DNA from: Mycobacterium botniense
GTDB lineage: Bacteria; Actinomycetota; Actinomycetes; Mycobacteriales; Mycobacteriaceae
Length of the DNA: 64,000 bases
Assembly (NCBI RefSeq): GCF_010723305.1
Contig: NZ_BLKW01000004.1
Location: 496,001-560,000 of the forward strand
Direction of reading: 5' to 3'
Part shown: in pieces, positions 1,278 to 40,319 of the stretch
Position numbering within the stretch: position 1 is the stretch's first letter
Layout of the letters: every line of letters begins with the position of its first letter
The notes under the pieces: generated by a model
The model's database searches: none
The model's input: only the letters and a program-made list of their open reading frames with translations
What the model was told of the DNA's origin: nothing
Translations under genes and position numbers: made by a program

Positions 1278-1297
1278 TAACCGAACATTTGTTAACG
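1278..1297 (-). promoter_or_regulatory. regulon motif copy A, upstream of the tandem TetR gene
   Basis: Read on the minus strand this is TTAACAAATGTTCGGTTA, directly after a possible -10 hexamer TAGCGT (1295-1300 on the plus strand). It matches AACAAATGTTAGGTTA at 7409-7424 at all but one base. The core AACA-N2-TGTT is an inverted repeat, as expected for a TetR-type operator. No good -35 is visible. That the tandem TetR protein binds here is inferred from position. Confidence 0.6.
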
Positions 1298-1375
1298 CTA
1301 CCAGACCGGGCGGGTCATCCCGGTAAGTTGAAGCGACCGACCAGCCGGCGGACGGTCGCCGTCTCTGCTGCCGTT

Positions 1376-2023
1376 CTACAGGGCTGGGCCATCCCAGCGG
1401 TCGAGGGCGACCACTTCGCTGAGGGGTCGCCGACTCGCCGGCTGGAAGCGCGTACCGTGACGCAGACGGCCGATCGGGAGCAGGCATCCCTGCACGTAAC
1501 TGGCCGGGATGCCAAGCAGCTCGCGGACGGTGTTTTCGTGATGAAGGTGCAGCGTTGTCACACAAGTCCCATAACCGCGGGTGTGCAAAGCGAGCTGGAA
1601 GTTCCACACCGCGGGGAAGATCGACCCGTACAGCGTCGCCCGGTAAAACGACTCGTCGCCCTCGATGCGAGGCAGATAGGGCTCATAACAAGGGATCACG
1701 AGCGTCGGCACCTTCGCCATGTTCTCGACGAGCCACTCGGTCGACGACATCAGACGTCTGCCGGGAGTATCGGCCGGCAACAAGTTGGCGACCAGCTGCC
1801 CGCCTACTCTGCGCAGGTATGCCTGTCGGTACAGCGCGGCGATCTTCTCCCGCAGCGCCGGGTCAAAGATGACCAGCCACCGCCAGGACTGCTGATTGGA
1901 GCCGTTGGCGGCTTGCAAACCGATGCGCAGGCACTCGCGGATGTCACCACGGTCAACTGGCGCGTCGAGGTCGAGCGACGTACGCGCCGATCGGGTGGCG
2001 CGCAGCAGATACTCGACGTCCAC
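1376..2023 (-). CDS. nitroreductase-family FMN oxidoreductase
   Basis: The product is 215 aa, the usual size for the nitroreductase fold. The N-terminus has the family's FMN-phosphate region (TRSARTSLD) and the SNQQSWRW segment near residue 42. The C-terminal half has GYGTCVTTLHL, followed by LLGIPASY and LLPIGRL, which match the typical end of the fold. Such enzymes use FMN and NAD(P)H to reduce nitro groups, quinones or enones in the cytosol. The GTG start at 2023 lies 6 bases after the stop of the upstream amidohydrolase, so both are probably cotranscribed. The substrate is unknown. Confidence 0.85.
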   Translation of the reverse strand: MDVEYLLRATRSARTSLDLDAPVDRGDIRECLRIGLQAANGSNQQSWRWLVIFDPALREKIAALYRQAYLRRVGGQLVANLLPADTPGRRLMSSTEWLVENMAKVPTLVIPCYEPYLPRIEGDESFYRATLYGSIFPAVWNFQLALHTRGYGTCVTTLHLHHENTVRELLGIPASYVQGCLLPIGRLRHGTRFQPASRRPLSEVVALDRWDGPAL

Positions 2024-2029
2024 GATCGC

Positions 2030-3316
2030 TTAGCCCGACGACGGTAGCTTGCTCGCCAAATCCAGCACCGTCACGATATCGGTGCCGATCTTCTTCAGCC
2101 GCGCCGAGGATCGGTAGCCCAGGTCGACATCGGTGGCTTGGGCGCGCAACGCTTTGACGGTGGCCTGCTCCCTGGGGATGTGCTGGAACAGGTCGAACGA
2201 AAAGAGGCGCATCGCGTTCAGGTGGGTGATCTTGTCGATCTCGTCGTCGGGCACGCCGTCGAGATAGACGGCCAGTGTTTCGGGCGCGACCGGCCATGTC
2301 GAGTCCGAGTGCGGGTAGTCACACTCCCAGGTGATCATGTCCAGGTTGAGCTTGTGGCGGTTCTCGATCCCGAACATGTCGTCGATAAAGCAGGTCACGA
2401 TGCGCTCCTTGAACACCTGGCTGGGCAACTTGTCACCGAAGTTCTGATGTGTCCACGCGCGGTGCATCGTGTAGACGCGGTCGATGCGTTCCAGGAAGTA
2501 GGGGATCCATCCGATACCCCCCTCGGACAGGGCGAAGATGAGATCAGGAAACTTGCGCAGCGTCGGCGACCACACCAGATCGGCCGCCGCGTTGACGATG
2601 CTCATCGGCTGCAGCGTGATCATGGTGTCGACGGGGGCGTCCACCGAGGTGATCACCACTGATGAGGACGAGCCGATGTGCAGGCACACGACGGTGTTCT
2701 CGTCGCTGCAGGCGGCCCAGAACGGATCCCAGTGTGGATCGTGTAGTGACGGGTAGCCGAGCTTGGTGGGGTTTTCGGAGAACGTGACGGCGTGGCAACC
2801 TTTCTTGGCCACCCGGCGCACCTCCTCGGCCATCAGGTGCGGATCCCAGATCGGTGGCAGCGCCAGCGGGATCATGCGGCCCGGGTAGGTGCCGCACCAC
2901 TCGTCGATGTGCCAGTCGTTGTACGCGCGCAGCACCGCCAGCGCGAGATCCTTGTCGCGAGCGCGGGCGAAGTACTGCCCGCAGAACTGCGGGTACGACG
3001 GGAAGTTCATCGCCGCGACGACGCCGTTGGCGTTCATGTCGCGGATACGCTGGTGGATGTTGTAGCAGCCTTCGCGAATCTCACTGAGTTTGGTTGGCTC
3101 GGCACCGTATTCGTCGGGTGGACGGCCCGCGACCGCATTCAGCCCGACGTTGGTGGCTTCTTGTCCCTCGAACACCCAGGCATCGGTGCCGTCCTCTCTC
3201 TTGACCAGTTTGGGCACGTCGTCCTTGTACTTGGCGGGGATGTGGCCTTTGAACATGTCGGGCGGCTCGACGAGGTGGTCGTCGACGGAGACCAGGACGA
3301 AATCATCCATTTTCAT
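2030..3316 (-). CDS. amidohydrolase-2 family metal-dependent hydrolase/decarboxylase
   Basis: A 428-aa TIM-barrel amidohydrolase (ACMSD/amidohydrolase-2 type). The N-terminal metal motif appears as SVDDHLVEPPD near residue 9. Further conserved pieces are VVCLHIGSSS in the middle and WECDYPHSDSTWP near residue 325, whose Asp is the usual metal ligand. The ATG at 3316 follows AAGGAG and is preferred to a longer ATG at 3361. Family members hydrolyse C-N bonds or decarboxylate aromatic or enol acids; which applies here is not visible. The gene begins a short minus-strand operon with the nitroreductase and is divergent from the AveC-like operon across motif copy B. Confidence 0.85.
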   Translation of the reverse strand: MKMDDFVLVSVDDHLVEPPDMFKGHIPAKYKDDVPKLVKREDGTDAWVFEGQEATNVGLNAVAGRPPDEYGAEPTKLSEIREGCYNIHQRIRDMNANGVVAAMNFPSYPQFCGQYFARARDKDLALAVLRAYNDWHIDEWCGTYPGRMIPLALPPIWDPHLMAEEVRRVAKKGCHAVTFSENPTKLGYPSLHDPHWDPFWAACSDENTVVCLHIGSSSSVVITSVDAPVDTMITLQPMSIVNAAADLVWSPTLRKFPDLIFALSEGGIGWIPYFLERIDRVYTMHRAWTHQNFGDKLPSQVFKERIVTCFIDDMFGIENRHKLNLDMITWECDYPHSDSTWPVAPETLAVYLDGVPDDEIDKITHLNAMRLFSFDLFQHIPREQATVKALRAQATDVDLGYRSSARLKKIGTDIVTVLDLASKLPSSG

Positions 3317-3404
3317 GGTGTGCTCCTTGTGTTTTCGGTGGAAGCCCCATGCACGCCTCAACCACCCACCTGCAGCAGACCCGTTCCCCGCCCAGCCGAA
3401 CTCA

Positions 3405-3455
3405 TTGACTGCAGTACAAGCCGCACTTTACTGTGGAACAGATATTTGGTCAACG
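3405..3455 (+). promoter_or_regulatory. promoter plus regulon motif copy B, for the first AveC-like operon
   Basis: A -35 TTGACT (3405-3410), 18-base spacer and -10 TACTGT (3429-3434) are followed one base later by GAACAGATATTTGGTCAACG (3436-3455). The arrangement and most bases are repeated at 13178-13227, 9.8 kb away. A repressor bound here would cover the likely transcription start. Confidence 0.65.
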
Positions 3456-3503
3456 GGTCGTGGACTAAGCGATGGGACGCGCGCGCACGTCGGGACGGGG
3501 ATC

Positions 3504-3623
3504 ATGGGTGCAGTCATCATGCTGGGCACACTTCTCAGCCTGATTGTTCTCATCGTTGGTCTGGTGGTTCGGTTTGACCCGCAAGCACGCGGTCCTTCCA
3601 TCCGCAAGGGCGACGGCGCATGA
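3504..3623 (+). CDS. 39-aa single-span membrane protein preceding the AveC-like gene
   Basis: The small ORF begins MGAVIMLGTLLSLIVLIVGL and ends in a charged, polar tail, so almost its whole first half is one hydrophobic helix. Its TGA overlaps the ATG of the next gene (ATGA at 3620-3623), which suggests translational coupling. It lies just downstream of motif copy B. The family is not recognised; a helper subunit of the AveC-like protein is an inference from coupling alone. Confidence 0.5.
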   Translation: MGAVIMLGTLLSLIVLIVGLVVRFDPQARGPSIRKGDGA

Positions 3624-4402
3624 GCACCCTGACTCCCCTCATGAAGGCAAGTATCGCGTTCGCCTATATCGGCGGGTTCACGTTCGTAGCCTTGGGTGTG
3701 TACCGCAGTTATCGCCGGCGTCGCCTGGATCCGCTTTTACTCGTGTGCATCTCGGCGATTTCGATCTCGTGGATCGAGGCGCCGTACGACTGGGCGGTGT
3801 ACGCGCAGTTCCCGCCTGCCATCCCTCGCATGCCGTCCTGGTGGCCGTTGAACATGACGTGGGGTGGCCTGCCGGCAGCGGTCCCTCCCGGGTACATTTC
3901 CTACTTCGTTCTTCCTGCCGTGATCGCAGCATTCGTCGGGCGCCGGCTGAGCTTGAGGTTCCAGTGGCGCAGGCCGGTGACGTTATTGGGTGCCGGACTG
4001 ATCATCGGCTTCCTGTGGGCGTTTCTGTTCAACGCGATCCTGGGGGCCCGGCTCGGCATGTTCTACTACGGCCGCGTGATCGGCGGACTCGCGTTGTGGG
4101 AGGGCACGAAGCACCAGTACCCGCTCTATGACGCGCTTGCGATGGGTGTCGTAGTGATGGTGTTCGCCTACATCCTTGGGCGAACCGATCCACAAGGACG
4201 CACGATCATCGACCAGTGGGCTGATTCACGGTCGACGGGCCGTCTGCAGTCGGCATTGCTGTCGGTTGTCGCCTTCGTCGTCATCGGGCACGTCGTCTAC
4301 GGCGCGGTCTTCGCCCCGCACCTCGTCACCAAACTGGCCGGCCTGGTGAGTGCTGGGCCCACCGAGCAGTTATTCGGCGGGGTGCCAAACCAACCGCAGT
4401 AA
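3620..4402 (+). CDS. AveC-like (spirocyclase AveC family) membrane protein, first copy
   Basis: A 260-aa polytopic membrane protein with about six or seven hydrophobic segments. It shares a pattern with the 379-aa protein at 16985-18124: a WxxxPxxxW..Y stretch (SWIEAPYDWAVYAQFPP), a PxWWPLN segment, a YISYFVLP helix and a late DPQGRTIIDQ motif corresponding to DDTGRTVAEK there. AveC of Streptomyces acts on a polyketide spiroketal (dehydration and spirocyclisation); mycobacterial relatives have no role I can name. It overlaps the small ORF by 4 bases and lies in the common regulon. The family call is from memory of the pattern, so moderate confidence. Confidence 0.6.
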   Translation: MSTLTPLMKASIAFAYIGGFTFVALGVYRSYRRRRLDPLLLVCISAISISWIEAPYDWAVYAQFPPAIPRMPSWWPLNMTWGGLPAAVPPGYISYFVLPAVIAAFVGRRLSLRFQWRRPVTLLGAGLIIGFLWAFLFNAILGARLGMFYYGRVIGGLALWEGTKHQYPLYDALAMGVVVMVFAYILGRTDPQGRTIIDQWADSRSTGRLQSALLSVVAFVVIGHVVYGAVFAPHLVTKLAGLVSAGPTEQLFGGVPNQPQ

Positions 4403-4518
4403 AGAACCGACAATCAAGGCCCGCAGATGAGCGAGGTATCAGGACGACGAGCCGGAATCTGGTTACTCGGTCTGCTCCGGTGTCACGAGTTAAGTCGAGT
4501 TAAACTGCCGTCACTGCG

Positions 4519-5160
4519 ATGAGGAGAAAGCCTGACGCCGAGCAGCGGCGCCGCGATCTGTGCGATGCCGCGATCGAGTTGTTGGCCGAGGATGGGGCGC
4601 GGGGACTGACCCACCTGCGTGTTGACCGGCGCGCAGGGGTCGCCGACGGGACGACGTCGTTCTATTTCCAGACAAGAGCTGCTCTGCTGCGCGGGGCTAC
4701 TGACCGGGTGGTGCAGCTCGACGTGGAGGACTTCACCGCCGCGATGAGCGCGATCAGTGCCTCCGGCGGCGATCGAGTCGACTCTCTTCTGTCTCGACTG
4801 GCCGAGCAGGCAATGAGGACCGCGGTCGAACCCGAACGATCACGTGCGCGTGCGCGTTTTGAGCTGCTGATGATCGCAGCGCGCGATCCGGAACTGGGTG
4901 CGGTGTTCCAGGGCCTCATGGATCGATTCGTCGCGATTAGCGAAGAGGCGGTGGCTCAAGTGCAGCCCGCCGGTGTGGTACCTGATCGAGAGCTGATCAA
5001 TGAGCAGGCATTCGCTGTGGTCACGTTCCTCGGCGGATTTCTCTTCCGGTTGGCCAACGGTCTGGCCCGGCTTGACGACGCCAAGCAACTCGAGGGGTAC
5101 CTCCATGCCGTAATTACTGGCGTCGCCGCCGAACACACACGAATCCGGGCGGCGGGTTGA
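4519..5160 (+). CDS. TetR-family transcriptional regulator
   Basis: The 213-aa product has a single N-terminal HTH: RRRDLCDAAIELLAEDGARG, then LRVDRRAGVADGTTSFYFQTRAALL (residues 10-55). The rest is a helical ligand-binding domain without recognisable specificity. Upstream, two GAGTTAA half-repeats lie at about 4487-4505 and could form its own operator; the GAACARAT motif is absent here. It is convergent with the alcohol dehydrogenase at 5178. Whether it controls the AveC-like operon upstream or only itself is not visible. Confidence 0.85.
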   Translation: MRRKPDAEQRRRDLCDAAIELLAEDGARGLTHLRVDRRAGVADGTTSFYFQTRAALLRGATDRVVQLDVEDFTAAMSAISASGGDRVDSLLSRLAEQAMRTAVEPERSRARARFELLMIAARDPELGAVFQGLMDRFVAISEEAVAQVQPAGVVPDRELINEQAFAVVTFLGGFLFRLANGLARLDDAKQLEGYLHAVITGVAAEHTRIRAAG

Positions 5161-5177
5161 CTCGCGTTGCGGGAGCG

Positions 5178-6200
5178 CTATCGCGCACGCCGAATACTCT
5201 TGTGCCGCTGGAGGGTTGTGTCGGCAGTGACGAGAACACGTCCATGCACACCGGCGTTGCGGACGAGATCGAAGGCGTCGGCGATCCGGTTCAGATCGAG
5301 TTGCGGCCCCATCATGGGGGCCGGCTCGATGTCTCCACTGCTGAAGGCGGCGATCACCTCGCGAAACTCGTCAGGCCGATAGCAGACAGAGAACCGGATA
5401 GTGAGCTCCTTGAGCAGCGCACCGACGGGTTCGATCGGCACCGCCTCGGCGCAGGCCCCCGAGATAACGATGCGACCAAGCGGGCGCACGGCCGTCTGGC
5501 ATGCCTGGAGAAGCTCGGGACGCCCGACACACTCGAACGCCGCGTCATACGCACCAGCGGTGCACTCGGTGACCGAGCCCACCACATCGGTTGCGCCCAT
5601 GACGCTGGCCAACTTACGGCGCTCGGGGTCAGGGTCGGCCGCCGTGATCCGCGCGGCTCTTTTCGCCGACAACCAGGCGATCGTGGTAAGACCAACACCA
5701 CCCGCGCCGATAACCAGCACCTCATCACCCGACCGGATCTCAGCCGTGTGGACACCGTGCAGTCCCACCGCGAACGGCTCAACCAAGGCCGCGCAAGTGC
5801 CAGTCAAATCATTGGGCAGGGCGAACGCATGCCGGGCGGGGACGACAGCGAGCTCGGCGAACCCGCCCCGATCTGGCCCCATACCGATGTAACGGGTCTG
5901 AGCGCAGTGCGCGACTACGCCGGCCACGCAGTAGCTGCAGGCGCCACAGCAAACAACCGGCAGCACAGCAACATTGGTGCCCGTGCGCCAGTTGCCGGCC
6001 TCCGATCCCACGGAGACGATCTCGCCACCCAATTCATGGCCCATGACGATGCCCGCAGGCATGAACGGCTGCGCTTTGACGTCCGAGCCGCAAACTCCGC
6101 ATGCCGCAACCCGGATCACCAACTCATCGGGACCCGGTACCGGATCGGGTAGTTCGACGATCTCGAATCCGTGGGCCTCCGTCGTGACGGCCGCCCTCAC
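5178..6200 (-). CDS. zinc-dependent medium-chain alcohol dehydrogenase
   Basis: A 340-aa MDR-superfamily dehydrogenase. Visible motifs are the catalytic-zinc CGVCGSDVK near residue 37, the GHE motif (VMGHELGGE), the structural-zinc cluster CCGACSYCVAGVVAHC near residue 90, and the Rossmann turn VIGAGGVGL near residue 170. It would oxidise an alcohol or reduce an aldehyde or ketone with NAD(P). The start is the GTG at 6200, whose GTGA overlaps the stop of the upstream sulfotransferase; the longer frame reading into that gene is spurious. It therefore forms a two-gene operon with the sulfotransferase. Confidence 0.88.
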   Translation of the reverse strand: MRAAVTTEAHGFEIVELPDPVPGPDELVIRVAACGVCGSDVKAQPFMPAGIVMGHELGGEIVSVGSEAGNWRTGTNVAVLPVVCCGACSYCVAGVVAHCAQTRYIGMGPDRGGFAELAVVPARHAFALPNDLTGTCAALVEPFAVGLHGVHTAEIRSGDEVLVIGAGGVGLTTIAWLSAKRAARITAADPDPERRKLASVMGATDVVGSVTECTAGAYDAAFECVGRPELLQACQTAVRPLGRIVISGACAEAVPIEPVGALLKELTIRFSVCYRPDEFREVIAAFSSGDIEPAPMMGPQLDLNRIADAFDLVRNAGVHGRVLVTADTTLQRHKSIRRAR

Positions 6201-7381
6201 GAGGTTCCTTCCATCTCGATCTCGAACGCCGACAGGTATGGGTCGAAGACCCGTTCCAGGTCGGCAATGGTGACGCCGGAGCCGTCGAGCGAATAGGGCT
6301 GAACGCCAAAGCGGTCCTGCGGATGTCGTTCCAACCACGTGAGCATGGCGGCCTCGGTAGACGCCGTGAGCTCGTCGCCCGCCCACTCGTACAGCGAACG
6401 CATCACGCCGATCGGATCGCGCATAAGCGCGGCGTAGTGCAAATCAAAGAACCGTTCGTCGCCGATGCGCCGGCGCGCTTGCAGCGGTCGGGCGACATGT
6501 GCCTGCAACTGGCGAAGCACGTTGGACACCACGTCGTCAACGTCGATGTCAGCACCCAGCACTGCGCGCGACAGATAATTCAACCGCAGGAACGATGCGG
6601 TGGCCTTGAACGGATCGCGGTGAGCCCAGACGATGCGCACATCAGGGAACGTCGAAAGCAGCGTTTCGATGTGCACGGCGTGGGATGGCATCTTGAGCGA
6701 CCACACACCCGGCGCCCGCGACTGCAGCATCTGCAACACCGACCGCTCGTAGGCATAGGTACTCGTCATGTCGGCCTCGAGCAGCCAGTCCGCGTAGGCG
6801 CTGGTCGGCATGAACGCCTCCCACAGGTAGGCCTTGAAATCCTGGCTTTGCACGAACACGCACTCGGTGGGCCCGTCGGCCTCATCCCAATGCACCATCG
6901 GGATGTTCGCTGCCTTCAACCCCTCAGCCATCATGTCCAGCTCGGCCTTCTTCTTCAGGCAGCGCGGATCGGTGCGTAATGTTTCAGGCGATGCTGGCGG
7001 GACGGAGTTCTCCGCTTCCCACGTCAATAGCGACCGCCGGTTGGGGTCCTGATCTAGCAGATAGCTCGCCAACGATGTACCGGTCCGCGGCAAGCCAAGA
7101 ACCACCAGCGGACGTTCGATGCGTTCCGCACCGACCTCGGGATGCCGCTTGAGGTAATCGACGACGCGCAGTCGGTTCCACAGGGCGTCGACGAACCGGC
7201 CGTAGACGTAGTCGCGTCCCCCGGCGGTCACACCGGGCGCGGATTCGACGGTCTGCACCAGAATTGTCAGACCCTCGCGCCACGAATCACTACCGAAGTC
7301 GTCGAGGCCGGCGCGCTCGCACGCGCGGGCGACCAGGTGCTCGACTTCCGGAGTGTTCTGGGTGCTTCGCAAGGTCGCCAT
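6197..7381 (-). CDS. sulfotransferase-family protein
   Basis: A 394-aa protein of the bacterial sulfotransferase family. The PAPS-binding P-loop is RPLVVLGLPRTGTSLASYLL (near residue 90), and the 3'-phosphate region appears later as IVWAHRDPFKATASFLRL. This would transfer sulfate from PAPS to a hydroxyl; mycobacteria have many such genes of unknown substrate. ATG 7381 is preferred because a TATAGT -10 lies about 9-14 bases upstream on the minus strand, giving a nearly leaderless message; ATG 7441 lies upstream of that box. The operator copy D is between it and the divergent sulfatase-like gene. Confidence 0.8.
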   Translation of the reverse strand: MATLRSTQNTPEVEHLVARACERAGLDDFGSDSWREGLTILVQTVESAPGVTAGGRDYVYGRFVDALWNRLRVVDYLKRHPEVGAERIERPLVVLGLPRTGTSLASYLLDQDPNRRSLLTWEAENSVPPASPETLRTDPRCLKKKAELDMMAEGLKAANIPMVHWDEADGPTECVFVQSQDFKAYLWEAFMPTSAYADWLLEADMTSTYAYERSVLQMLQSRAPGVWSLKMPSHAVHIETLLSTFPDVRIVWAHRDPFKATASFLRLNYLSRAVLGADIDVDDVVSNVLRQLQAHVARPLQARRRIGDERFFDLHYAALMRDPIGVMRSLYEWAGDELTASTEAAMLTWLERHPQDRFGVQPYSLDGSGVTIADLERVFDPYLSAFEIEMEGTS

Positions 7382-7389
7382 GCGACCAG

Positions 7390-7424
7390 AGACTATACGA
7401 TCGTAGAGAACAAATGTTAGGTTA
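7390..7424. promoter_or_regulatory. divergent promoter with regulon motif copy D
   Basis: The motif GAACAAATGTTAGGTTA is at 7408-7424. Rightwards it is preceded by TACGAT (7396-7401), a possible -10 for the sulfatase-like gene. Leftwards TATAGT (7390-7395 on the minus strand) is a possible -10 for the sulfotransferase. The motif would overlap promoter elements in both directions, so one regulator could control both genes. Confidence 0.55.
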
Positions 7425-7457
7425 GGCAGCGGACGCGGCATGGGAGGTTGACTGCTG

Positions 7458-8684
7458 GTGCCATCGCTGGACTCGCTGGTGAAACAAGGCGAGGGCGATC
7501 AGGACGCCGTCGATGTTGGCGACGGCATATTTATGTCCAGAAACATCGCCAACAGCTACCTGGTGACGACGGCCGACGGCGACGTGCTGATCAACACCGG
7601 CACCGACTTCGAAGCCGCCCGAATCAAGGCGCGTTTTGACCGGGTGAGCAGCGGGCCGCTTCGAGTCATCGTCTTCACCCAGGGCCATCCGGACCATGTG
7701 GGTGGGTGGAGCCTCTTCCACGGGCCCGGTGTTGAGACCATCGCTCAGGCGAACCACACTGATGTCCGGGAGTACTGGCGGCGCCTGCACCCGTTTTACT
7801 CGCGGCGCATCATGAGGCTGTGGGGCGCATTCGTGGATGTCGACGCGGCGTCGCTGAAACTACCGCCGGAACCAGCGCTCACCACCACGTTCATCGACAG
7901 CCATGCGTTCGAGCTCGCAGGCCGCCGGTTCGAGCTTTACTCCACCCCGGGCGGTGAGACCACCGACGCCCTTGTCGTCTGGATGCCTGAGCACCGGACC
8001 GCCTTCATCGGTAACCTGATGGGGCCGTTCTTCGGTCATGTGCCAAATCTGTACACCTTGCGCGGGGACAAGATCCGCAGCGCGATGGCATTCATCCACT
8101 CGGTGGACCGGGTAATCGCACTCGGGCCCGAGACGCTCATCAACGGTCACGATGTCTTTCGCGGTGCCGACGAGATACGGCACACGATGACCACAGTCCG
8201 AGACGCCACGGCTTATCTGCGCGACCGGACCATCGAGGGGATGAACGCGGGCACCGACCTGTGGACCCTGATGCATGAAATCAGGCTGCCGGCCGATCTT
8301 GCGCTACCCGAGGTGCACGGCAAGGTGCCATGGATCGTGCGGGCAATCTGGGAAGAACACGTCGGCTGGTTTCGGTACGAGTCGACCACCGAGCTCTACG
8401 ACGTACCGCCGTCGGCGGTATGGCCCGACATCGTCGATCTGGCCGGCGGCGTCGCCGCTCTCACCGAGCGCGCCCATACTCACGTCGAACAGGGACGTGC
8501 CCTGCAGGCGCTGCACCTGACCGATATCGTCCTTGGCCACTCACCCAGTGACCCCGGCGCATTACGGGTGAAGCGTGCTGCCCTCGAACAGCTCCTAGCC
8601 GCCTCCGGACGGGAGAACTTCAGCGAGACGCAATGGCTGGAGCAGGAAATCAAGAAGACCACCGACGATACGGAGTGCGAATGA
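7458..8684 (+). CDS. metallo-beta-lactamase-fold hydrolase, alkylsulfatase-like
   Basis: A 408-aa protein with the MBL fold (residues 20-240) followed by a helical domain like the dimerisation part of SdsA/BDS1-type alkylsulfatases. The metal motif reads TQGHPDHVGG (residues 74-83): Gln75 stands where the first His of HxHxDH is expected, while His77, Asp79 and His80 are kept. Later ligand-like residues are STPGGETTDALV and LINGHDVF. The pairing with a sulfotransferase across a shared operator suggests sulfate-ester turnover, which is inference. Translation begins at a codon giving MPSLDSLVKQG. Confidence 0.75.
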   Translation: MPSLDSLVKQGEGDQDAVDVGDGIFMSRNIANSYLVTTADGDVLINTGTDFEAARIKARFDRVSSGPLRVIVFTQGHPDHVGGWSLFHGPGVETIAQANHTDVREYWRRLHPFYSRRIMRLWGAFVDVDAASLKLPPEPALTTTFIDSHAFELAGRRFELYSTPGGETTDALVVWMPEHRTAFIGNLMGPFFGHVPNLYTLRGDKIRSAMAFIHSVDRVIALGPETLINGHDVFRGADEIRHTMTTVRDATAYLRDRTIEGMNAGTDLWTLMHEIRLPADLALPEVHGKVPWIVRAIWEEHVGWFRYESTTELYDVPPSAVWPDIVDLAGGVAALTERAHTHVEQGRALQALHLTDIVLGHSPSDPGALRVKRAALEQLLAASGRENFSETQWLEQEIKKTTDDTECE

Positions 8685-9151
8685 AGCCCGAGGACCTCTA
8701 CCACACCGGCATCGTGGTCGACGACTTCGATGAAACCCTGGATTGGTTCATCAAAGTCGCCGGCTACCGGTGGACCGACGTGGTCGAGGTCGACCAGGTC
8801 GCCCAGACGCCGGACGGTGAGATCACCATTCCCATGCGAATGGCGTACTCGGGGAGAGACCCTCGGGTGGAGCTTCTGCAGACAGTTCCCGGAACGATCT
8901 GGGTCCCTGCGGATTCGGGCGTGCATCATCTCGGCTACTGGTCCGACGACGTGGAGTCAGATCTTGCGACACTCGAGGCGACCGGCATGCGATACGAGGT
9001 GAAGGCATTCAACCCGGATGGGTCCGGGGAACTTCTGTGGGCGTACTGCAAAGGCCCGGCCGGACCGCGTATTGAGCTTGTCAGCCGGGCTATGGAACCG
9101 TTCATCCACTACTGGTTCGCCACTGCCGACACCGCCTCGCAATCAGGCTGA
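8681..9151 (+). CDS. VOC-family (glyoxalase/dioxygenase-fold) protein
   Basis: The 156-aa protein carries one VOC fold: LYHTGIVVDDFDETLDWF at the start, GVHHLGYWSDD in the middle and LLWAYCKGPAGPRIELVSR at the end. The HTGIV and HHLGYW histidines and a late Glu would form the metal site. Members include epimerases, lyases, dioxygenases and isomerases acting on CoA esters or aromatic diols. The ATG overlaps the stop of the sulfatase-like gene (ATGA at 8681-8684), so they are one operon. Confidence 0.8.
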   Translation: MKPEDLYHTGIVVDDFDETLDWFIKVAGYRWTDVVEVDQVAQTPDGEITIPMRMAYSGRDPRVELLQTVPGTIWVPADSGVHHLGYWSDDVESDLATLEATGMRYEVKAFNPDGSGELLWAYCKGPAGPRIELVSRAMEPFIHYWFATADTASQSG

Positions 9152-9187
9152 CATGACCGTCACGTCACGAACGCATTTGCGCCATGG

Positions 9188-9965
9188 TTGCTTCGGCCCA
9201 TCCGGTTCGGGCTAATCGCGGCAGCCGCAGATGCCAGCGAACTCATCCAAACAGCACAGGCGGCCGACGGGGCAGGCTATTCAACGATCGGACTCAATGA
9301 TCACTTCAACTCAACCGTCGCACCGTTAGTCGGTCTCCAAGCGATGGCAGGCGCCACGTCGCGCCTACGACTCTCGACAGCGGCGCTCAATCAAGACCTG
9401 CGACATCCCCGGTGCTGGCCAAGGAAGTGGCTACCCTCGACGTCTTCTCTGGCGGACGGGTGGAGCTTGGCCTAGGCGCAGGATGGGTGCGCGCCGACTA
9501 CGTGCAATCTGGCATCGCGTTCGAACCGGCATCCCGGCGGATCGTCCGGCTGGAGGAAATCATCGACATCGTCAAGCAGCTATTAGCCCAGGGGACATGC
9601 AATTTCGCCGGCAAGCACTTCACCATCGCCGACCTCGAAAGCAATCCGCCGCCGATGCAACGCGGCGGACCTCCGATCCTGGTCGGACGTGGAGGGCGAA
9701 GAATCTTGTCTATGGCCGCGCGGTACGAAGCCGCAGGACCTGGTGCCGATCGTCGATCGGCTGGCGGGTATCTAATCCGTTGATTTCACGCAGGCCTTGC
9801 GAGAACTCGGAGGTCTTCTCTATCAGCGAAAGCAAACCTGAACCGTGCCGCTTCTTTTTGTGAAATTCTCGCCGAGCGCCGGATCTGTTCGATCGCGATT
9901 TCACCACCGCCGCGCCCAACCGCGAGTGGGTCACCGGCTTCGTCGTTACGGTGCCATGGAGCTAG
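9188..9965 (+). pseudogene. broken luciferase-like (F420-type) oxidoreductase gene
   Basis: The N-terminal part of a luciferase-like monooxygenase is clear (RFGLIAAAADASELIQTA, GYSTIGLNDHF). At about 9408, after ALNQDLRHP, the frame is lost; one missing base restores AKEVATLDVFSGGRVELGLG in another frame. This second piece runs to about 9725 and breaks again. A further family-like fragment (DFTQALRELGGLLYQRK) is at about 9783-9840. With at least two frameshifts the gene is very unlikely to be functional. Relatives use F420 and often sit beside VOC and hydrolase genes, as here. Confidence 0.8.
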
Positions 9966-10891
9966 GTGCTAATGCCAAGCCGATCGCAGACCGCGAAGAC
10001 TTCGTCGAAGATCGAGCCGGGAACGGTGAACGGTTCTGTGGCCGACACCTCGGACAGATGGGCCGCGATGTCGTCGGCGGTCGGGTTGCTGCCCTTTTCC
10101 GCGAGCCAGCCCTGGCCGAGGCCGACGAAGACCCGCGCGAAGCGCCCGGCGCAGGCGGAATAGTTGTGATGGGTGAAACCGCAGGACCGGCTGGCCAGGA
10201 ACACGACGATGGGCACCACCAGTTCAGGCTGGATTACTTTCAGAAAGCCTGTCTCCTCAAGGACTTTCGGGTCGCCAACGGTTTCGGTGACCATTCGCGA
10301 GAAACCGAACGGCAATACAGTGTTGGCCAGGATGCCGTGCTGCGCGCCCTCGATGGCGATGACGTTGGCCAACCCGACCAGGCCCGCCTTGGCCGCCGCG
10401 TAATGGGCCTCCAGCGGCTGCCCGAACACGCCCGCCGAGGAGGTGATGAACACGAATCGGCCGTAGCCCTGCGATTTCATCACCCTATATGCGGGCTGGC
10501 TCAAATAAAACCCGCCGTCCAGGTGTACGCGCAGCATGCGCCGCCAGTCGTCGCGCGACAGTTCGTCGAAGGCAACGCTGTTGAAGATCCCGGCATTGCT
10601 CACCACCGCGTCCAGGCGGCCGAACCGTTCGACCGCGGCCCCCACGATCGCCTCTCCGCCCTCTGGGCTGTCGACGGAGTCGTGTGATGCCACCGCTACA
10701 CCGCCGGCGCTTTCGATTTCCGCGACGACCTTGTCGGCGACGCCGGGATCCGCACCCTCGCCGTGCATGGATCCGCCCAGATCGTTGACCACCACCGACG
10801 CGCCGCGTCGCGCAAACTCAAGCGCGTAGAGCCGGCCGAGGCCCCGACCCGCTCCGGTTACGATGACAACCTGACCGCTGAAGTCGATCAC
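9962..10891 (-). CDS. short-chain dehydrogenase, (3R)-hydroxyacyl-CoA/MFE type
   Basis: A 309-aa SDR. It has the cofactor motif VTGAGRGLGRLYALEFARRG (near residue 11), NDLGGS, which is typical of the MFE-2/HSD17B4 group and NAD preference, then NAG at VVSNAGIF, the catalytic Ser in FITSSAGVFG and Tyr/Lys in HYAAAKAG. The extended C-terminus (about 50 aa beyond a minimal SDR) also fits that group. It probably oxidises a 3-hydroxyacyl-CoA. Its ATG overlaps the stop of the FadE gene upstream (10888-10891). Confidence 0.88.
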   Translation of the reverse strand: MIDFSGQVVIVTGAGRGLGRLYALEFARRGASVVVNDLGGSMHGEGADPGVADKVVAEIESAGGVAVASHDSVDSPEGGEAIVGAAVERFGRLDAVVSNAGIFNSVAFDELSRDDWRRMLRVHLDGGFYLSQPAYRVMKSQGYGRFVFITSSAGVFGQPLEAHYAAAKAGLVGLANVIAIEGAQHGILANTVLPFGFSRMVTETVGDPKVLEETGFLKVIQPELVVPIVVFLASRSCGFTHHNYSACAGRFARVFVGLGQGWLAEKGSNPTADDIAAHLSEVSATEPFTVPGSIFDEVFAVCDRLGIST

Positions 10892-11997
10892 GGCGAGCTG
10901 CTCCTTCGTTGTCGGATAGACTGTGCCAGTTGGGCGCCCACGTGCATGAGGTAGTGATCGGGTCCGCCGGTGAATTCGTTCCAGCTCAGCAGCCGCTTGA
11001 GGTAGAGGTGCGCGTCGTGCTCCCAGGTGTAGCCGATGCCGGCGAACACCTGAATCGCGGTATCACCGACGGCGGCGAGCCGCCCCGCGAACGCCTTGGC
11101 CCGCACCGCCGCCAGGTGACGCTCGTCGGTACCGGCGGCGTCGGCCGCCCACAGCGCGTGGATCACACCGCTGCGGGCCAGCTCCACGGTCTCATACATG
11201 TCGACACACAGGTGCTGCACCGCCTGAAACGACCCGATAGGGTGGCCGAACTGACGGCGCACCTTCGCGTAGTCGACGGCGAGATCCAGGACCGCCCGTG
11301 CGGCGCCCAGCGCGTCGGCGGCGCGCGTGACCAGGATGTCGTCGGCGAGCGCCTGAACCGCTTCCGGTGAGGCGTCGGCAAGACGTTGCGCCGGCGCGTC
11401 ATCGAGGGTGACACGAAACTGTTTGCGGGTCTGGTCGATACCATGCTCGGGTGCCACCACAACGCCAGATGACGCTGAATCCACAGCGAAAAGTCCTGCG
11501 CCGTCCGGACCGTCAGCAAGCACAAGCAGGACATCGGCCGCGGCGGCATCTGCTACAGCGTCGATCTCGCCTCGCAGCACAGCACCGTCGCCCCGCTCGA
11601 TAGCCGCCGGCCGGGCGCCGCCAAGGGCGCCGACCGTCGCGATCACGGTGCCGTCGCTGATGGCCGTCAAAAGTGCGGCGGCCTCGGCGCCGAACCGCGC
11701 GAGGGCACGCGGCGCGGCGACCGCCGTTGACAGCCACGGTCCGGGGTGCAGTGCGGCGCCGAGCTCTTCGGCGACGATGCCGGCTTCCACCATGGTCATA
11801 CCGGCACCGCCGCACTCCTGCGGTACCAGCAGACCCGTGGCGCCCAGCTCGGCCAGGCCCCGCCAGACCACATGCGTGGTGCCGGTGAGATCCTCGAGCA
11901 TCGGACGCACATGCCCGGAAGTCGTCGCCTTCTCGGCGAGAAAGCGCCGCACGGTATCGCGCAGTGCCGCCTGTTCGTCGGTGAGCTCGAGGTTCAT
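10888..11997 (-). CDS. acyl-CoA dehydrogenase, one half of a FadE pair
   Basis: The 369-aa product begins MNLELTDEQAALRDTVRRFL, then GLLVPQECGGAGMTMVEAG, a degenerate middle domain, and a C-terminal domain with YAKVRRQFGHPIGSFQAVQH and AKAFAG. The late region reads QVFAGIGYTWEHDAHLYLKR. The ATG at 11997 overlaps the previous gene's stop. Adjacent FadE genes of this kind in mycobacteria often encode the two halves of an alpha2beta2 heterotetramer acting on bulky (for example steroid side-chain) CoA esters; the partner here is 11994-13151. Confidence 0.85.
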   Translation of the reverse strand: MNLELTDEQAALRDTVRRFLAEKATTSGHVRPMLEDLTGTTHVVWRGLAELGATGLLVPQECGGAGMTMVEAGIVAEELGAALHPGPWLSTAVAAPRALARFGAEAAALLTAISDGTVIATVGALGGARPAAIERGDGAVLRGEIDAVADAAAADVLLVLADGPDGAGLFAVDSASSGVVVAPEHGIDQTRKQFRVTLDDAPAQRLADASPEAVQALADDILVTRAADALGAARAVLDLAVDYAKVRRQFGHPIGSFQAVQHLCVDMYETVELARSGVIHALWAADAAGTDERHLAAVRAKAFAGRLAAVGDTAIQVFAGIGYTWEHDAHLYLKRLLSWNEFTGGPDHYLMHVGAQLAQSIRQRRSSSP

Positions 11998-13151
11998 TGG
12001 CGCGGGAACCCGAGGACGCGCTGCGCGGTGATGTTCTTGTTGATTTGGGTTGTGCCGCCCGCGATGGTGAGCGAACGCGACGTCAGGCGGTAGTCGGCCC
12101 ACCGACCGTTGGCACTGCGCGAGCCGAGCACATCGAAGGCCAAAGCGGCGATGTCCTGGCCGATTTCAGCCCAGATCGTCTTCGCGAGGCTGGCCGAACC
12201 CAGCGGGTCGCCGCCGTGCAGCATGGCCGAGATCGAGCGCTTACACAGCACTTCGAGGTATTTGATGCGCACGGCGATCTCGCCGAGGCGCCGCAGCGTC
12301 ACCGGGTCGTCGAGTGGGCTCTGACCATCGAGTTCAACCTCGCCAAGATCGGCGACCAGATCCTCCAGCCGCAGCTGCATCTCGGTGTAAAGGCGCGCGG
12401 CTCCGGAGCGCTCGTGGCTCAGTGTGGTGGTGGCGATCCGCCAGCCTTCGTTGACCGGCCCGAGCAGGGCCTCTACCGGTACCCGCACCCCGGTAAAGAA
12501 CATCTCCGCGAAATCCGTGTCGCCGTTGAGCGTGACGAGCGGCCGGACCTCGATACCCGGTAACGACATGTCGACGATCAGACAGGAGATGCCCTGGTGT
12601 TTAGGCGCATCCGGATCGGTGCGCACATACAGCTGACACCAGTCGGCGCGGTGCCCCAGCGAGGTCCAGATCTTCTGGCCGTCGACCACGAAGTGGTCGC
12701 CCTCGCGCACGGCGCGGGTCCGCAGCGAGGCGAGGTCGGAGCCGGCTTCGGGCTCGGACATGCCCTGACACCAGATATCGTCCGCGCGGACCATACGGGG
12801 GAGCAGCGTGTGTTTCTGGGCCTCGGTTCCGTACTGCATGATCGCCGGCGCGATATTGTTGATCCCAATCACGTTGAGCGGGAGCGGCGCCCGGGCGCGT
12901 GTAGTTTCCTCGGCGTAGACGAGCTGCTCGAGCATCGTCGCTCCGCGGCCGCCGTACTCGCGCGGCCAGGACACCGCGGCCCAGCCCGCGTCGGCCATCC
13001 TGCGATCCCAGGCGCGAAGCGTCTCGAACGCGGCATCGTCCGCGCCCGCCCGGCGGCGGGCCGCCACCACCTCATCGGTCAAGTTCGCGGCCAGCCACGT
13101 TCGCAGCTCCTCGCGGAACTGTTCCACCTCCGCCGGGTATGCGAAATCCAC
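11994..13151 (-). CDS. acyl-CoA dehydrogenase, partner half of the FadE pair
   Basis: A 385-aa acyl-CoA dehydrogenase starting MDFAYPAEVEQFREELRTWL. FAD/substrate motifs are WCQGMSEPEAGSDLASLRT (near residue 130), VDGQKIWTSLGHRADWCQLY and VPVEALLGPVNEGW. Where classical enzymes have the EGTxEI loop, it reads IAGGTTQINKNI, so the Glu base is missing, as is common in one partner of heteromeric FadE enzymes. It is the first gene of the minus-strand operon FadE-FadE-SDR and diverges from the VWA gene across motif copy E. Confidence 0.88.
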   Translation of the reverse strand: MDFAYPAEVEQFREELRTWLAANLTDEVVAARRRAGADDAAFETLRAWDRRMADAGWAAVSWPREYGGRGATMLEQLVYAEETTRARAPLPLNVIGINNIAPAIMQYGTEAQKHTLLPRMVRADDIWCQGMSEPEAGSDLASLRTRAVREGDHFVVDGQKIWTSLGHRADWCQLYVRTDPDAPKHQGISCLIVDMSLPGIEVRPLVTLNGDTDFAEMFFTGVRVPVEALLGPVNEGWRIATTTLSHERSGAARLYTEMQLRLEDLVADLGEVELDGQSPLDDPVTLRRLGEIAVRIKYLEVLCKRSISAMLHGGDPLGSASLAKTIWAEIGQDIAALAFDVLGSRSANGRWADYRLTSRSLTIAGGTTQINKNITAQRVLGFPRQ

Positions 13152-13177
13152 GTTGCCCTTTACCGAACCTCACGCGA

Positions 13178-13227
13178 TTGACTGCAGCCAATGCCGGACT
13201 CTACGGTGGAACAGATATTTGGTCAAC
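13178..13227 (+). promoter_or_regulatory. promoter plus regulon motif copy E, for the VWA/AAA+ operon
   Basis: TTGACT (13178-13183), an 18-base spacer, TACGGT (13202-13207) and then GAACAGATATTTGGTCAAC (13209-13227). Apart from a few spacer bases this is a copy of 3405-3454, including the ATTGACTGCAG start. It also lies between divergent genes, so it may influence the FadE operon on the other strand. Confidence 0.65.
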
Positions 13228-13247
13228 TAGGGCATAGGCGTTGAATT

Positions 13248-14972
13248 TTGGCGAACGACGACGTCATTGCTGAGCGTGTGCAGCGACTGAACCTGCTTGC
13301 GTCAGCACTGTCCGGCTACGCGCTGCGGGTGGCGCCGGTCGAACCGGGCACGCCGGCGTGGACGGATGGCCGCACCGTATTTCTCGACTCCGAGGCCAGC
13401 ACCCGCAGCCAGGTCGAGGCACTTGCCGTGCAGGCGTCGCTGCTCGCGGCCGGAAGTCTGGAACCGAACGTACTCCGCAGGCTCGTCCGCCGTCGCACAT
13501 TAGCCAGGCGCTATCTTGCCGTCGAAGCCCACCGGGCATTGGCGGCGAACGAGCACGTGCTGCCGCCACGGGTGCGCTCGCTCATCGACCGCGACATGGC
13601 CGCTCGCAGCGATTCACCTGCCGCGTCCCTGGAAGTGGCGTTGAGCCGGCAACCGATTGCCGACCCGCCGGAGGTCTTCGGCGTCATCCGGGCCCGAAAT
13701 GTGTTGGTTGGAAAAAACCGCGCATCGCCGACGGAGCCGAACCGGCGCCTCGAGCAGCGGAGGCAAAGTCGGGCGCGGGCCGAGCTGGACGACGACGCTG
13801 GTGGCGTCGACACCTTCTCCAGCCCGGTAGGCGGCGGGGGCGCGCTCGGCCGATTGCTCCAGAAGATGCTGCGAGTGGTGCGCCGGCTCGACGAGGGCGG
13901 CCCTCCCGGCGTGGACGCGCCGACGCGTCGGACGCGCTCGGGTACACGCCGCGGCGGCAACGCGGTGGTCTCGGCCGCTGAAGCGGGCGCGTTCGAGGAA
14001 AGCCCGCGCACAGGGACCGCAACGAAATATCCGGAGTGGGACGTTCATCGACGGCGGTATCGGCTGAACTGGTGCACAGTCCGGGAGGTGACGCCGGACC
14101 CGAAGGACGGCACTTCGCCGCAGTTGTCGGATGCGCGGTTGGGCCGAGCGCTTGCCCGTCTGAGGATGGGCCTGGATCGGTGCCACCGGGAGGTTCAGGG
14201 CGATGATATCGACATCGACGCTGCGGTTGAGGCACGCGTGGAAGCGATGGCCGGGTCGGCCCCCGACGACGCGGTCTACCTGGACAACCTACGTCGCCTG
14301 CGTGACCTTTCGGTGCTGGTCCTGCTCGACGTTTCCGGCTCGGTCGCCGAGGCCGGCACAATCGGCCAGACCGTGCACCAGCAGCAACGGGCGGCCGCCG
14401 CAGCGTTAGTCTTCGCGTTGCACCATCTGGGGGATCGGGTGGCGCTGTACGCATTTCATTCGCAGGGCCGGTCCGCTGTTCACCTGATGCCGGTGAAACG
14501 TTTCGATGACAAGCTTGACGCCTTGGTGATGCGGCGTCTCAGCGGCCTCATGCCCGGCGCGTACTCCAGACTCGGCGCGGCGATCCGTCATAGCGCGACG
14601 GTGTTGGACCGCCAGGGCGGCACCACGCGGCGATTGCTTGTGGTGTTGTCCGATGGGTTGGCTTACGACCATGGCTACGAACGCGTCTACGGCGCGGCCG
14701 ATGCGCGCCGAGCGCTTGCCGAGGCTCGTCACCGGGGCATCGGCTGCCTGTGTCTGACTATCGGCGCCGGCACCGATGTGGAGGATCTGCAGCGCGTGTT
14801 CGGCAGTGCGGCCCATGCCACGATTCCGCGGCTTGAGCAGCTGGGCCAGCTGATCGGTCCGCTGTTCCGATCCGCGCTGCGCTCGGCGGAGGTTCGCCGG
14901 CGGGTGTCATCAAGTCGGCTGACAGCGGCCCATGCCTGGTCCGATAGCACGGCGGGCGCGGGGAAAGGATAA
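13248..14972 (+). CDS. VWA-domain protein of NorD/CbbO type
   Basis: A 574-aa protein. Residues 1-140 form a helical domain; residues 150-260 are Arg- and Gly-rich and probably disordered; residues 355-560 are a von Willebrand A domain with the MIDAS motif LLDVSGSVAE (Asp361), a Thr-containing loop and LLVVLSDGLAYD. Proteins of this kind (NorD, CbbO) work with a MoxR-class AAA+ ATPase to remodel or activate an enzyme, often by metal insertion or inhibitor removal. The ATPase is the next gene, 2 bases downstream. The TTG start at 13248 is uncertain; GTG 13278 is possible. No Rubisco, nitric-oxide reductase or methanol dehydrogenase gene is nearby, so the client is unknown. Confidence 0.75.
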   Translation: MANDDVIAERVQRLNLLASALSGYALRVAPVEPGTPAWTDGRTVFLDSEASTRSQVEALAVQASLLAAGSLEPNVLRRLVRRRTLARRYLAVEAHRALAANEHVLPPRVRSLIDRDMAARSDSPAASLEVALSRQPIADPPEVFGVIRARNVLVGKNRASPTEPNRRLEQRRQSRARAELDDDAGGVDTFSSPVGGGGALGRLLQKMLRVVRRLDEGGPPGVDAPTRRTRSGTRRGGNAVVSAAEAGAFEESPRTGTATKYPEWDVHRRRYRLNWCTVREVTPDPKDGTSPQLSDARLGRALARLRMGLDRCHREVQGDDIDIDAAVEARVEAMAGSAPDDAVYLDNLRRLRDLSVLVLLDVSGSVAEAGTIGQTVHQQQRAAAAALVFALHHLGDRVALYAFHSQGRSAVHLMPVKRFDDKLDALVMRRLSGLMPGAYSRLGAAIRHSATVLDRQGGTTRRLLVVLSDGLAYDHGYERVYGAADARRALAEARHRGIGCLCLTIGAGTDVEDLQRVFGSAAHATIPRLEQLGQLIGPLFRSALRSAEVRRRVSSSRLTAAHAWSDSTAGAGKG

Positions 14973-14974
14973 CG

Positions 14975-15781
14975 ATGCCGGGTTCAGAGGTCCGTCCGTA
15001 TTACGTGCCGGTCGGTAACGAGGAGCATGTGTTCAAAGCGGCTTTCCGGCAAGGATTGTCGGTTGTGCTCAAGGGTCCCACCGGATGTGGAAAGACACGC
15101 TTCGTCGAGGCGATGGCCTATGACCTCAAACGCCCGCTCATCACCGTGGCCTGTCACGACGACCTGAGCACTGCTGATCTGGTGGGACGGTTCCTGCTGC
15201 GCGGTGGTGACACGGAGTGGGTCGACGGACCGCTGACCCGCGCGGTGCGCGAAGGCGCGATCTGCTACCTGGATGAGGTCGTGGAAGCCCGCCAGGACAC
15301 CACAGTCGTGCTTCACCCGCTAACTGACCATCGCCGCCAGCTTCCGATCGAGCGCCTGGGCGTAACCCTTGACGCAGCCCCGGGTTTCTGCCTGGTGGTC
15401 TCCTACAACCCCGGATACCAAAGTGTTCTCAAGGATCTCAAGGACTCGACGCGCCAACGGATGGTCGCCATCGAACTCGGATTCCCGGCGGCAGACGTCG
15501 AGGAGAAAATCGTCGCCGTGGAAGCCGGGATCGACCACGACGTGGCGGCCCAGCTGGTGAGGGTCGGCCAGGCGATCCGTCGCCTCGAGAATGTGGGGCT
15601 GCGCGAGGTGGCGTCGACTCGGGTGCTGATTGCGGCCGGGCGGCTCATCGGCGCAGGGCTCAGCCCGCGCGAGGCGGCCCGCGCCGCCATTGTCGGGCCG
15701 CTCACCGACGACGCGACTGTGACCGCGGGGCTGGTGGAGCTGATGGATGCGTACCTGGCCGACACGAGCAGCCCTGATTGA
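14975..15781 (+). CDS. MoxR-class AAA+ ATPase, CbbQ/NirQ/NorQ type
   Basis: The 268-aa ATPase has Walker A GPTGCGKT (residues 34-41), Walker B AICYLDEVVEA (95-105), a sensor-like SYNPGYQ segment (about 143-149) and the small C-terminal helical domain of the CbbQ/NorQ group. It would form a hexamer and act with the VWA protein encoded just upstream. The spacing of 2 bases between stop and ATG supports cotranslation. The end of the gene overlaps the -35 element of the next promoter (TTGACC at 15778-15783). Confidence 0.85.
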   Translation: MPGSEVRPYYVPVGNEEHVFKAAFRQGLSVVLKGPTGCGKTRFVEAMAYDLKRPLITVACHDDLSTADLVGRFLLRGGDTEWVDGPLTRAVREGAICYLDEVVEARQDTTVVLHPLTDHRRQLPIERLGVTLDAAPGFCLVVSYNPGYQSVLKDLKDSTRQRMVAIELGFPAADVEEKIVAVEAGIDHDVAAQLVRVGQAIRRLENVGLREVASTRVLIAAGRLIGAGLSPREAARAAIVGPLTDDATVTAGLVELMDAYLADTSSPD

Positions 15782-15826
15782 CCATCACGGCACGCGACGC
15801 TAGTGTCTGAACAAATATTAGGTTTA
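15778..15826 (+). promoter_or_regulatory. internal promoter plus regulon motif copy C
   Basis: TTGACC (15778-15783) overlaps the ATPase stop codon; a 17-base spacer leads to TAGTGT (15801-15806), and GAACAAATATTAGGTTTA (15809-15826) follows two bases later. This is the same layout as at 3.4 and 13.2 kb, so the downstream SBP-AveC-SDR-ALDH-P450 genes can be transcribed independently but under the same control. Confidence 0.65.
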
Positions 15827-16982: not shown

Positions 16983-16984
16983 CG

Positions 16985-20493: not shown

Positions 20494-20508
20494 AGGAGAA
20501 ATACCGGA

Positions 20509-40126: not shown

Positions 40127-40251
40127 TACGGGCACCTCCATCACGATCAACACCACGCATACAGTCCGCGTTGCGCGGCCAGGAAACCGAATGTACCGGC
40201 AGCTGCCGCCTGAACTGCTGCTACGCAGACGTATCGCCGCCGCGCTTCTGC

Positions 40252-40274
40252 TACTGTAATGCCTATCGTAGGGT
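40252..40274. promoter_or_regulatory. candidate operator with CCTATCG core (copy 1)
   Basis: The divergent region between the TetR and SDR genes contains TACTGTAATGCCTATCGTAG. Its CCTATCG core recurs, inverted, in the palindrome before the hydratase gene (42305-42324). TetR proteins usually bind their own divergent promoter, so this is a candidate site for the TetR at 39278. Only two copies exist in the window, so support is limited. Confidence 0.3.
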
Positions 40275-40319
40275 TTTTGGTAGCTCACGGGCCGGCCGAA
40301 GCGTAACTGGGCGCACACC

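Follow-up and report, generated by a model that had tools for sequence, protein, structure and literature searches.

The stretch of Mycobacterium botniense DNA analysed here, 64,000 nucleotides of contig NZ_BLKW01000004.1 (positions 496,001 to 560,000 of the forward strand; hereafter the window), carries at its left end the gene of a tandem TetR protein and, within its first 16 kb, five copies of a short promoter-associated motif that is probably the operator of this protein. The open reading frame of the regulator runs from -104 to 1269 on the minus strand (1 to 1269 inside the window; negative positions lie to its left) and encodes 457 amino acids; a GTG start at 1239, preceded by GGAGG, is likelier and gives 447 amino acids (as P0002). 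The motif, GAACARATRTTNGGTY in its 16-mer form, is present as exact plus-strand copies at 3436–3451, 7408–7423, 13209–13224 and 15809–15824, and on the minus strand with one mismatch (TAAC for GAAC) at 1279–1294, in the promoter of the tandem TetR gene, where it is a candidate autoregulation site. A 16-mer search recovered all five copies listed in the initial annotation, and the 3.4- and 13.2-kb sites, described there as nearly identical, agree in 44 of 52 bases. The claim that no copy lies beyond 16 kb holds within the window at up to two mismatches of the 16-mer, and four matches appear there at three mismatches of a 15-mer.

The copies sit in a characteristic promoter context. At 3.4 kb the forward promoter (3405–3434, plus strand) reads TTGACT, an 18-base spacer and TACTGT, with the motif starting 1 base later; at 13.2 kb (13178–13207, plus) it reads TTGACT-18-TACGGT, again with the motif 1 base later, and at 15.8 kb (15778–15806, plus) TTGACC-17-TAGTGT, with the motif 2 bases later. 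The 1.3-kb site has a -10 (TAGCGT, 1295–1300, minus) that abuts the motif and no TTGA -35, and at 7.4 kb the motif follows the -10 TACGAT by 6 bases. These arrangements are those that had been described initially, namely a -35, a spacer of 17–18 bases and a -10 ahead of the motif at three sites and weaker promoters at the other two. Missed, however, was a second, oppositely directed promoter at 3.4 and 13.2 kb whose -35 (TTGACC) lies mostly within the motif, as GGTCAA at 3448–3453 and 13221–13226, and whose -10, 17 bases from this -35 on the minus strand, is TAAAGT (3425–3430) and TAGAGT (13198–13203), respectively. At both sites the -10 hexamers of the two directions share two bases, which puts the predicted transcription starts about 23 bp apart.

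For larger-scale comparison we defined a forward layout, in which TANNNT ends 0–4 bases before the motif and TTGA lies 16–19 bases further upstream, and a reverse layout, in which TTGA stands at the right end of the motif on the other strand and TANNNT follows 16–19 bases on. By this rule both layouts are present at 3436 and 13209, only the forward one at 15809, a forward -10 alone at 1279 and the reverse layout alone at a further copy, at -283; the sites at 7408, -3457 and -3538 fail the strict definition.

The copies are concentrated far beyond chance expectation. Against the five window matches at one mismatch or fewer, 40 first-order Markov simulations of the window gave a mean of 0.025 and at most 1 in any single simulation. 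Across the genome (4,335,050 bases) there are 6 such matches, all between C4:495717 and C4:511824, a span of 16.1 kb, the sixth being the copy at -283. Allowing two mismatches gives 24 matches, 8 in the cluster and 16 distant; because two of the two-mismatch copies lie at -3457 and -3538 (C4:492462 and 492543), the cluster begins about 3.5 kb left of the window. Each of the 8 cluster sites has the reverse layout or at least a TANNNT no more than 6 bases away, and the full promoter layout occurs at 0/16 and TANNNT at 1/16 of the distant matches. By a mechanical test, an open frame of more than 100 codons contains every one of the 16 distant matches, a location that is uninformative because 7 of the 8 cluster sites share it. 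The initial annotation had named copies scattered at random through the genome as the finding that would speak against a local regulon; all six near-perfect copies are local, and we rejected a scattered genome-wide regulon on the basis of the missing promoter layouts at distant two-mismatch matches. The near-perfect operators are thus confined to the neighbourhood of the regulator.

The same arrangement recurs in related genomes. We collected the best 80 of 426 candidate loci found with the regulator protein (1,562,297 bases), all but one of which (L038) are labelled mycobacteria in the wide sense. They contain 114 exact, 78 one-mismatch and 120 two-mismatch sites, 312 together, and the reversed pattern gave 0 at every level; with the simulations and the genome-wide clustering, this control led us to reject chance repeats as an explanation. 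At least one site at one mismatch or fewer is found in 74/80 loci, the others (L039, L049, L052, L071, L080 and L086), which are shorter, cut loci, having two-mismatch sites only, and an operator lies at the regulator's upstream end in 66/80. The exceptional locus, labelled Deltaproteobacteria UBA9160, is a 6.2-kb contig of a metagenome-assembled genome that carries tandem TetR, VWA, CbbQ and AveC-like genes together with an exact operator, and is probably a mis-binned mycobacterial contig; its regulator was left out of the alignment, as the stretch contained a stop codon.

When the 312 sites are classed by neighbouring genes homologous to 28 genes of the M. botniense region, a polar grammar emerges: sites have their GAAC half behind a -10, their GGT end serving as the -35 of an opposite promoter, or both. 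Where the gene lies in the direction of the motif only (n = 107), TANNNT is present at 103 sites, the full forward layout at 53 and the reverse layout at none. The count of 53 is low mainly because of the regulator's own promoter; the largest class of such promoter sites has the -10 in 36/36 cases and a TTGA -35 in 0/36. Where the gene lies in the opposite direction only (n = 95), 82 sites have the reverse layout, 1 the full forward layout and 10 TANNNT; between divergent genes (n = 67) the forward layout is found 61 times and the reverse 59 times, and sites without an assigned gene (n = 43) show 5 forward and 17 reverse layouts. Shuffled flanks gave 0.0–0.1 layouts per group. The flipped arrangement was absent in its full form (0/312), and a lone TANNNT at the GGT edge occurred at 9/312 sites. 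Equivalents of the 15.8-kb site have the forward promoter only in 52/54 cases, and where loci are rearranged the same genes retain the motif at their promoters.

The two halves of the operator are unequal. In a logo of 192 sites (one mismatch or fewer), position 3 is A in 95% and its mirror position C in 82%. Since the first search was itself asymmetric, we retested this with a pattern identical to its reverse complement, which gave 410 matches against 75 for the reversed control; the combination A/C accounted for 233, A/A for 47, C/G for 30 and C/C for 28. Among 209 of these with TANNNT 0–6 bases from either edge, a filter that favours forward-type sites, there were 170 A/C, 19 C/C, 18 C/G, 1 A/A and 1 G/G. 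Backward-only sites (n = 95) divide into 41 A/C and 39 A/A, whereas forward-only sites are A/C in 100/107. As the latter lack an overlapping -35, we rejected the idea that the asymmetry is a by-product of that element. Unequal half-sites would be fitting for a protein with two unequal helix-turn-helix (HTH) units.

Such a protein is what the regulator gene predicts. Two stretches match the TetR_N domain (PF00440) within the single 457-residue polypeptide, and in whole-chain comparisons (Foldseek and VIA-align) its predicted structure matches Mce3R (9b7y) over nearly the full length, with 18% identity in the structural alignment. Two DNA-binding domains, the predicted whole-chain fold and an asymmetric operator are all features shared with tandem TetRs of the Mce3R kind. 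We do not regard the protein as an Mce3R orthologue, given this identity and a sequence match limited to one stretch (residues 37–171, E 1.4e-11).

Further tandem TetRs occur in these genomes. A second one, 59–63% identical to the query, is encoded in G004, G007, G012, G018, G024 and G043, with motif copies beside its gene in G004, G007 and G018, and G043 has a third, at 52%. Two more loci, L140 and L141 (from G018 and G039), encode tandem TetRs of 24% identity (a 461-residue frame in L140) beside acyl-CoA dehydrogenase-like genes; the motif was not found in either at up to two mismatches. We considered these two as possible Mce3R orthologues; in a comparison of the L140 protein with the PDB, Mce3R is one of many TetR matches. 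The two are uninformative on the Mce3R operator. They possibly form a further, separate tandem-TetR branch in mycobacteria.

The distribution of the motif across genomes follows that of the regulator. In a set of 100 genomes the regulator (best E below 1e-100) is encoded in 37, comprising 35/60 of its own genus (the M. botniense genome included) and 2/40 elsewhere in the order. An exact motif is present in 36/37 genomes with the regulator as compared with 1/63 without it (Fisher p 7e-25, a value overstated because the genomes are related). The single exception without regulator, G005, is 84% complete and in 720 contigs. When one mismatch is allowed, 65/100 genomes have a match, so isolated one-mismatch matches are often due to chance. 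The substrate-binding protein of the region (E ≤ 1e-90) is found in 36 genomes, 35 of them with the regulator and only G005 without. In G053 and G083 the regulator is present and this protein, at the same threshold, absent; as regulator and target occur almost together, co-occurrence alone cannot separate them. Two order-level relatives with more distant regulators help a little here, as a small sample. The tandem TetR of G083 (47% identity) has three sites within 8 kb, one exact and two with one mismatch, and one of the three lies at a Rieske-oxygenase gene. In G092 three sites, two exact and one with one mismatch, lie within 12 kb of a copy of 46% identity. In the G083 and G092 46% copies recognition helix 1 is kept and helix 2 nearly kept. 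The other copy in G092 (57% overall) has diverged recognition helices, and its two adjoining operators have two mismatches each with the layouts present. At distant exact copies of the motif in G029 and G031, a scan for the promoter layouts found neither.

Taken together, locality, co-occurrence across 100 genomes and retention at promoters argue for the local regulon under the tandem TetR that had been proposed initially. At a probability of about 80%, we read the motif as the operator of the tandem TetR encoded at -104 to 1269 and the regulator as a repressor resembling Mce3R that controls its own gene and a local catabolic regulon. Probably like Mce3R, the protein would combine two different HTHs and a pseudo-dimeric core in one chain, each HTH reading one of the half-sites, GAAC.. 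and ACC.., which resemble each other without being equal. Once bound, it would probably obstruct RNA polymerase by masking either the start site immediately after the -10 or the -35 and spacer of the oppositely running promoter. At divergent pairs, among them those at 3.4 and 13.2 kb with their overlapping -10s, one bound repressor would close both directions. Copies at the promoter of the regulator, which in the window combines an operator with a -10, and at the flanking operons would then give an autoregulated local regulon for the oxidative breakdown of a probably hydrophobic substrate, some metabolite of which would lift repression.

Several observations weigh against this interpretation. 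The 80 loci were chosen by the regulator, so that its presence there is by construction, and relatives are not independent, meaning that the counts overstate certainty. Not every site follows the grammar: those at 7.4 kb and -3457 have just a -10, 6 bases away, the one at -3538 has the full forward layout only when a gap of 5 is allowed, and sites before CbbQ are closer to symmetric (GAACAGATGTTTGTTT), of the A/A kind. The structure model has a pLDDT of 79.3 and was built from 42 sequences. G053 has the regulator without an exact motif, with just a two-mismatch site near the upstream end of the regulator, and the only tested regulon gene nearby is a 33%-identical short-chain dehydrogenase/reductase (SDR); there is no substrate-binding protein. 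At the 6 sites of G083 and of the 46% copy in G092, TANNNT lies within 6 bases in 4/6 and the full layout is found in 0/6, and one of the G083 sites adjoins a distant PF13458 protein. Finally, as regulator and core target were gained or lost nearly together, another factor of equal distribution could formally be the binder.

We weighed other ways of reading the motif. A second TetR-family protein, a single TetR encoded inside the cluster between the 3.4- and 7.4-kb sites (4519–5160, plus), could bind it as an ordinary homodimer, since such homodimers commonly recognise palindromes of similar length, and relatives of this protein (E ≤ 1e-40) occur in 129/297 genomes of the genus. Yet no homologue is present in any of the 80 site-keeping loci (E ≤ 1e-20, flanks up to 10 kb), and an orthologue of at least 73% identity exists in 5/297 genomes (next best 52%) while the motif is widespread; a homodimer should, moreover, read equal half-sites, whereas those observed are unequal. 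We rejected this candidate because it is not conserved with the sites, and regard it as very improbable. Less probable still is that the motif serves as a promoter element for recognition by RNA polymerase or by an alternative sigma factor: although most sites touch -10 or -35 sequences, the motif occupies two different positions relative to the start site, beside otherwise ordinary TTGA/TANNNT promoters, which led us to reject the idea, and exact copies are absent from 62/63 genomes without the regulator.

It is somewhat easier to imagine, if still unlikely, that the tandem TetR binds the motif and activates, or activates some genes and represses others, with reverse-type sites perhaps behaving differently. 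The two distinct placements would allow for this, and another mycobacterial TetR-like factor, GplR1, is proposed to be both activator and repressor in the part of its report available (PMC12455991). Both placements nevertheless overlap core promoter positions, and the structural match Mce3R is described as a repressor in the available sections of PMC11667970. Repression by the tandem TetR remains our preferred reading.

Autoregulated tandem-TetR repressors with a lipid-type regulon are known from Mce3R (Rv1963c) of Mycobacterium tuberculosis, which its authors present, in the accessible text, as the first double TetR whose structure has been solved (PMC11667970). Its operator is complicated: the same text describes two 25-bp non-palindromic sites 53 bp apart, whereas here, comparing the operators by description, each promoter has one compact 16-base quasi-palindrome with a milder asymmetry, weak at CbbQ sites. 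No mce genes are among the regulon genes annotated here, in contrast to the Mce3R regulon. Both halves of the tandem protein are similar to KstR2, a TetR-family member like KstR; KstR2 is, however, a homodimer of single units (PMC11667970, available sections) and not one chain, and both KstR2 and KstR are reported to bind palindromic motifs (PMC4482099, available sections), unlike the unequal halves seen here. The overlap of -10s from both strands at 3.4 and 13.2 kb is also found in the bidirectional promoters described by the Grainger laboratory (PMC10268837 and PMC12825309, in the portions available), with the difference that the pair here adjoins a single operator, which also provides the opposite -35. 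The predicted distance of about 23 bp between starts compares with the usual 18 in those promoters, and falls inside the 7–25 bp by which they are defined (PMC10268837, same portions).

Four spellings of the operator were not found in the 5.39 million papers searched, whose coverage leaves out most subscription journals, and neither the operator nor the grammar and gene set were found there, including in the available parts of PMC4482099, PMC10843139 and PMC12455991. Searches on double or tandem TetRs returned only unrelated papers among the matches listed, and, judged by title and abstract, no paper on the gene set was among the matches listed for AveC-like or CbbQ/P450 operons in mycobacteria.

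Genes can be provisionally assigned to the operators from the promoter directions. Left of the 3.4-kb operator, its reverse promoter is predicted to drive the amidohydrolase gene (2030–3316, minus; PF04909), in keeping with the reverse layout at 5/5 amidohydrolase-adjacent sites in related loci; a nitroreductase-family gene (1376–2023, minus; PF00881) has a homologue in 42/80 loci. Downstream of the 3.4-kb forward promoter lies a gene for an AveC-like membrane protein (3620–4402, plus; PF17198), whose start is overlapped (ATGA at 3620) by a 39-codon open reading frame (3505–3622, plus) with, by eye, a single membrane span; this may encode a small partner protein translated in coupling with the AveC-like gene. 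The 7.4-kb site separates a divergent sulfotransferase-family gene (6197–7381, minus; PF13469) from a downstream metallo-beta-lactamase/alkylsulfatase-like gene (7458–8684, plus; PF00753 and PF14863). The reverse promoter at 13.2 kb is predicted to drive an SDR gene and two acyl-CoA dehydrogenase genes (9962–13151, minus), and on its other side are the genes of a VWA-domain protein and a CbbQ/NorQ-type AAA ATPase (13248–15781, plus). After the 15.8-kb site, a likely operon (15870–21729, plus) encodes a substrate-binding-type protein (PF13458), an AveC-like protein, an SDR, an aldehyde dehydrogenase and a cytochrome P450. A Mycobacterium 19-kDa lipoprotein-family gene lies near the locus.

Much of this gene set recurs in the 80 loci, where counts are lower bounds as the loci are partly cut. 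Homologues of the three SDRs are present in at least 57, 48 and 51 loci, of the two acyl-CoA dehydrogenases in at least 61 and 60, and of the VWA protein, CbbQ-type ATPase, substrate-binding-type protein and AveC-like protein in at least 61, 58, 57 and 55. Less frequent are P450 (at least 25), aldehyde dehydrogenase (at least 21), two DAP-dehydrogenase-like genes (at least 8 each), LLM oxidoreductase and amidohydrolase (at least 6 each). Gene order varies among 17 loci compared, and VWA, acyl-CoA dehydrogenases, substrate-binding protein, LLM and amidohydrolase mostly keep their site. By its annotations the set looks like one for oxidation of an alcohol or aldehyde to the acid, followed by dehydrogenation of the CoA ester.

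More tentatively, and with rather less than even confidence, the operator may be seen as a polar, portable promoter cassette by which one chain silences two overlapping promoters and around which genes have been reshuffled in the course of mycobacterial evolution without leaving the regulon. The two different heads of a one-chain repressor would fix the orientation of each site, consistent with the GAAC half abutting the forward -10 in 103/107 and the GGT end supplying the reverse -35 in 82/95. With some 300 naturally occurring, compact copies of the operator in a strict promoter layout, and with natural variants of both recognition helices, this family makes the reading of DNA by two unequal HTHs in one chain directly testable. 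It also defines an uncharacterised, putatively catabolic regulon of many mycobacteria, with its acyl-CoA dehydrogenase pair, P450, aldehyde dehydrogenase, CbbQ/VWA pair and AveC-like proteins.

Two further features of the window lie outside the cluster. A 488-residue open reading frame (39278–40744, minus) has one TetR_N domain that starts only at residue 229, which probably means that translation starts further downstream, or else that the N-terminal part is unusual. A 740-residue protein (36213–38435, plus) carries DUF5632 and DUF5631 at its C-terminal end.

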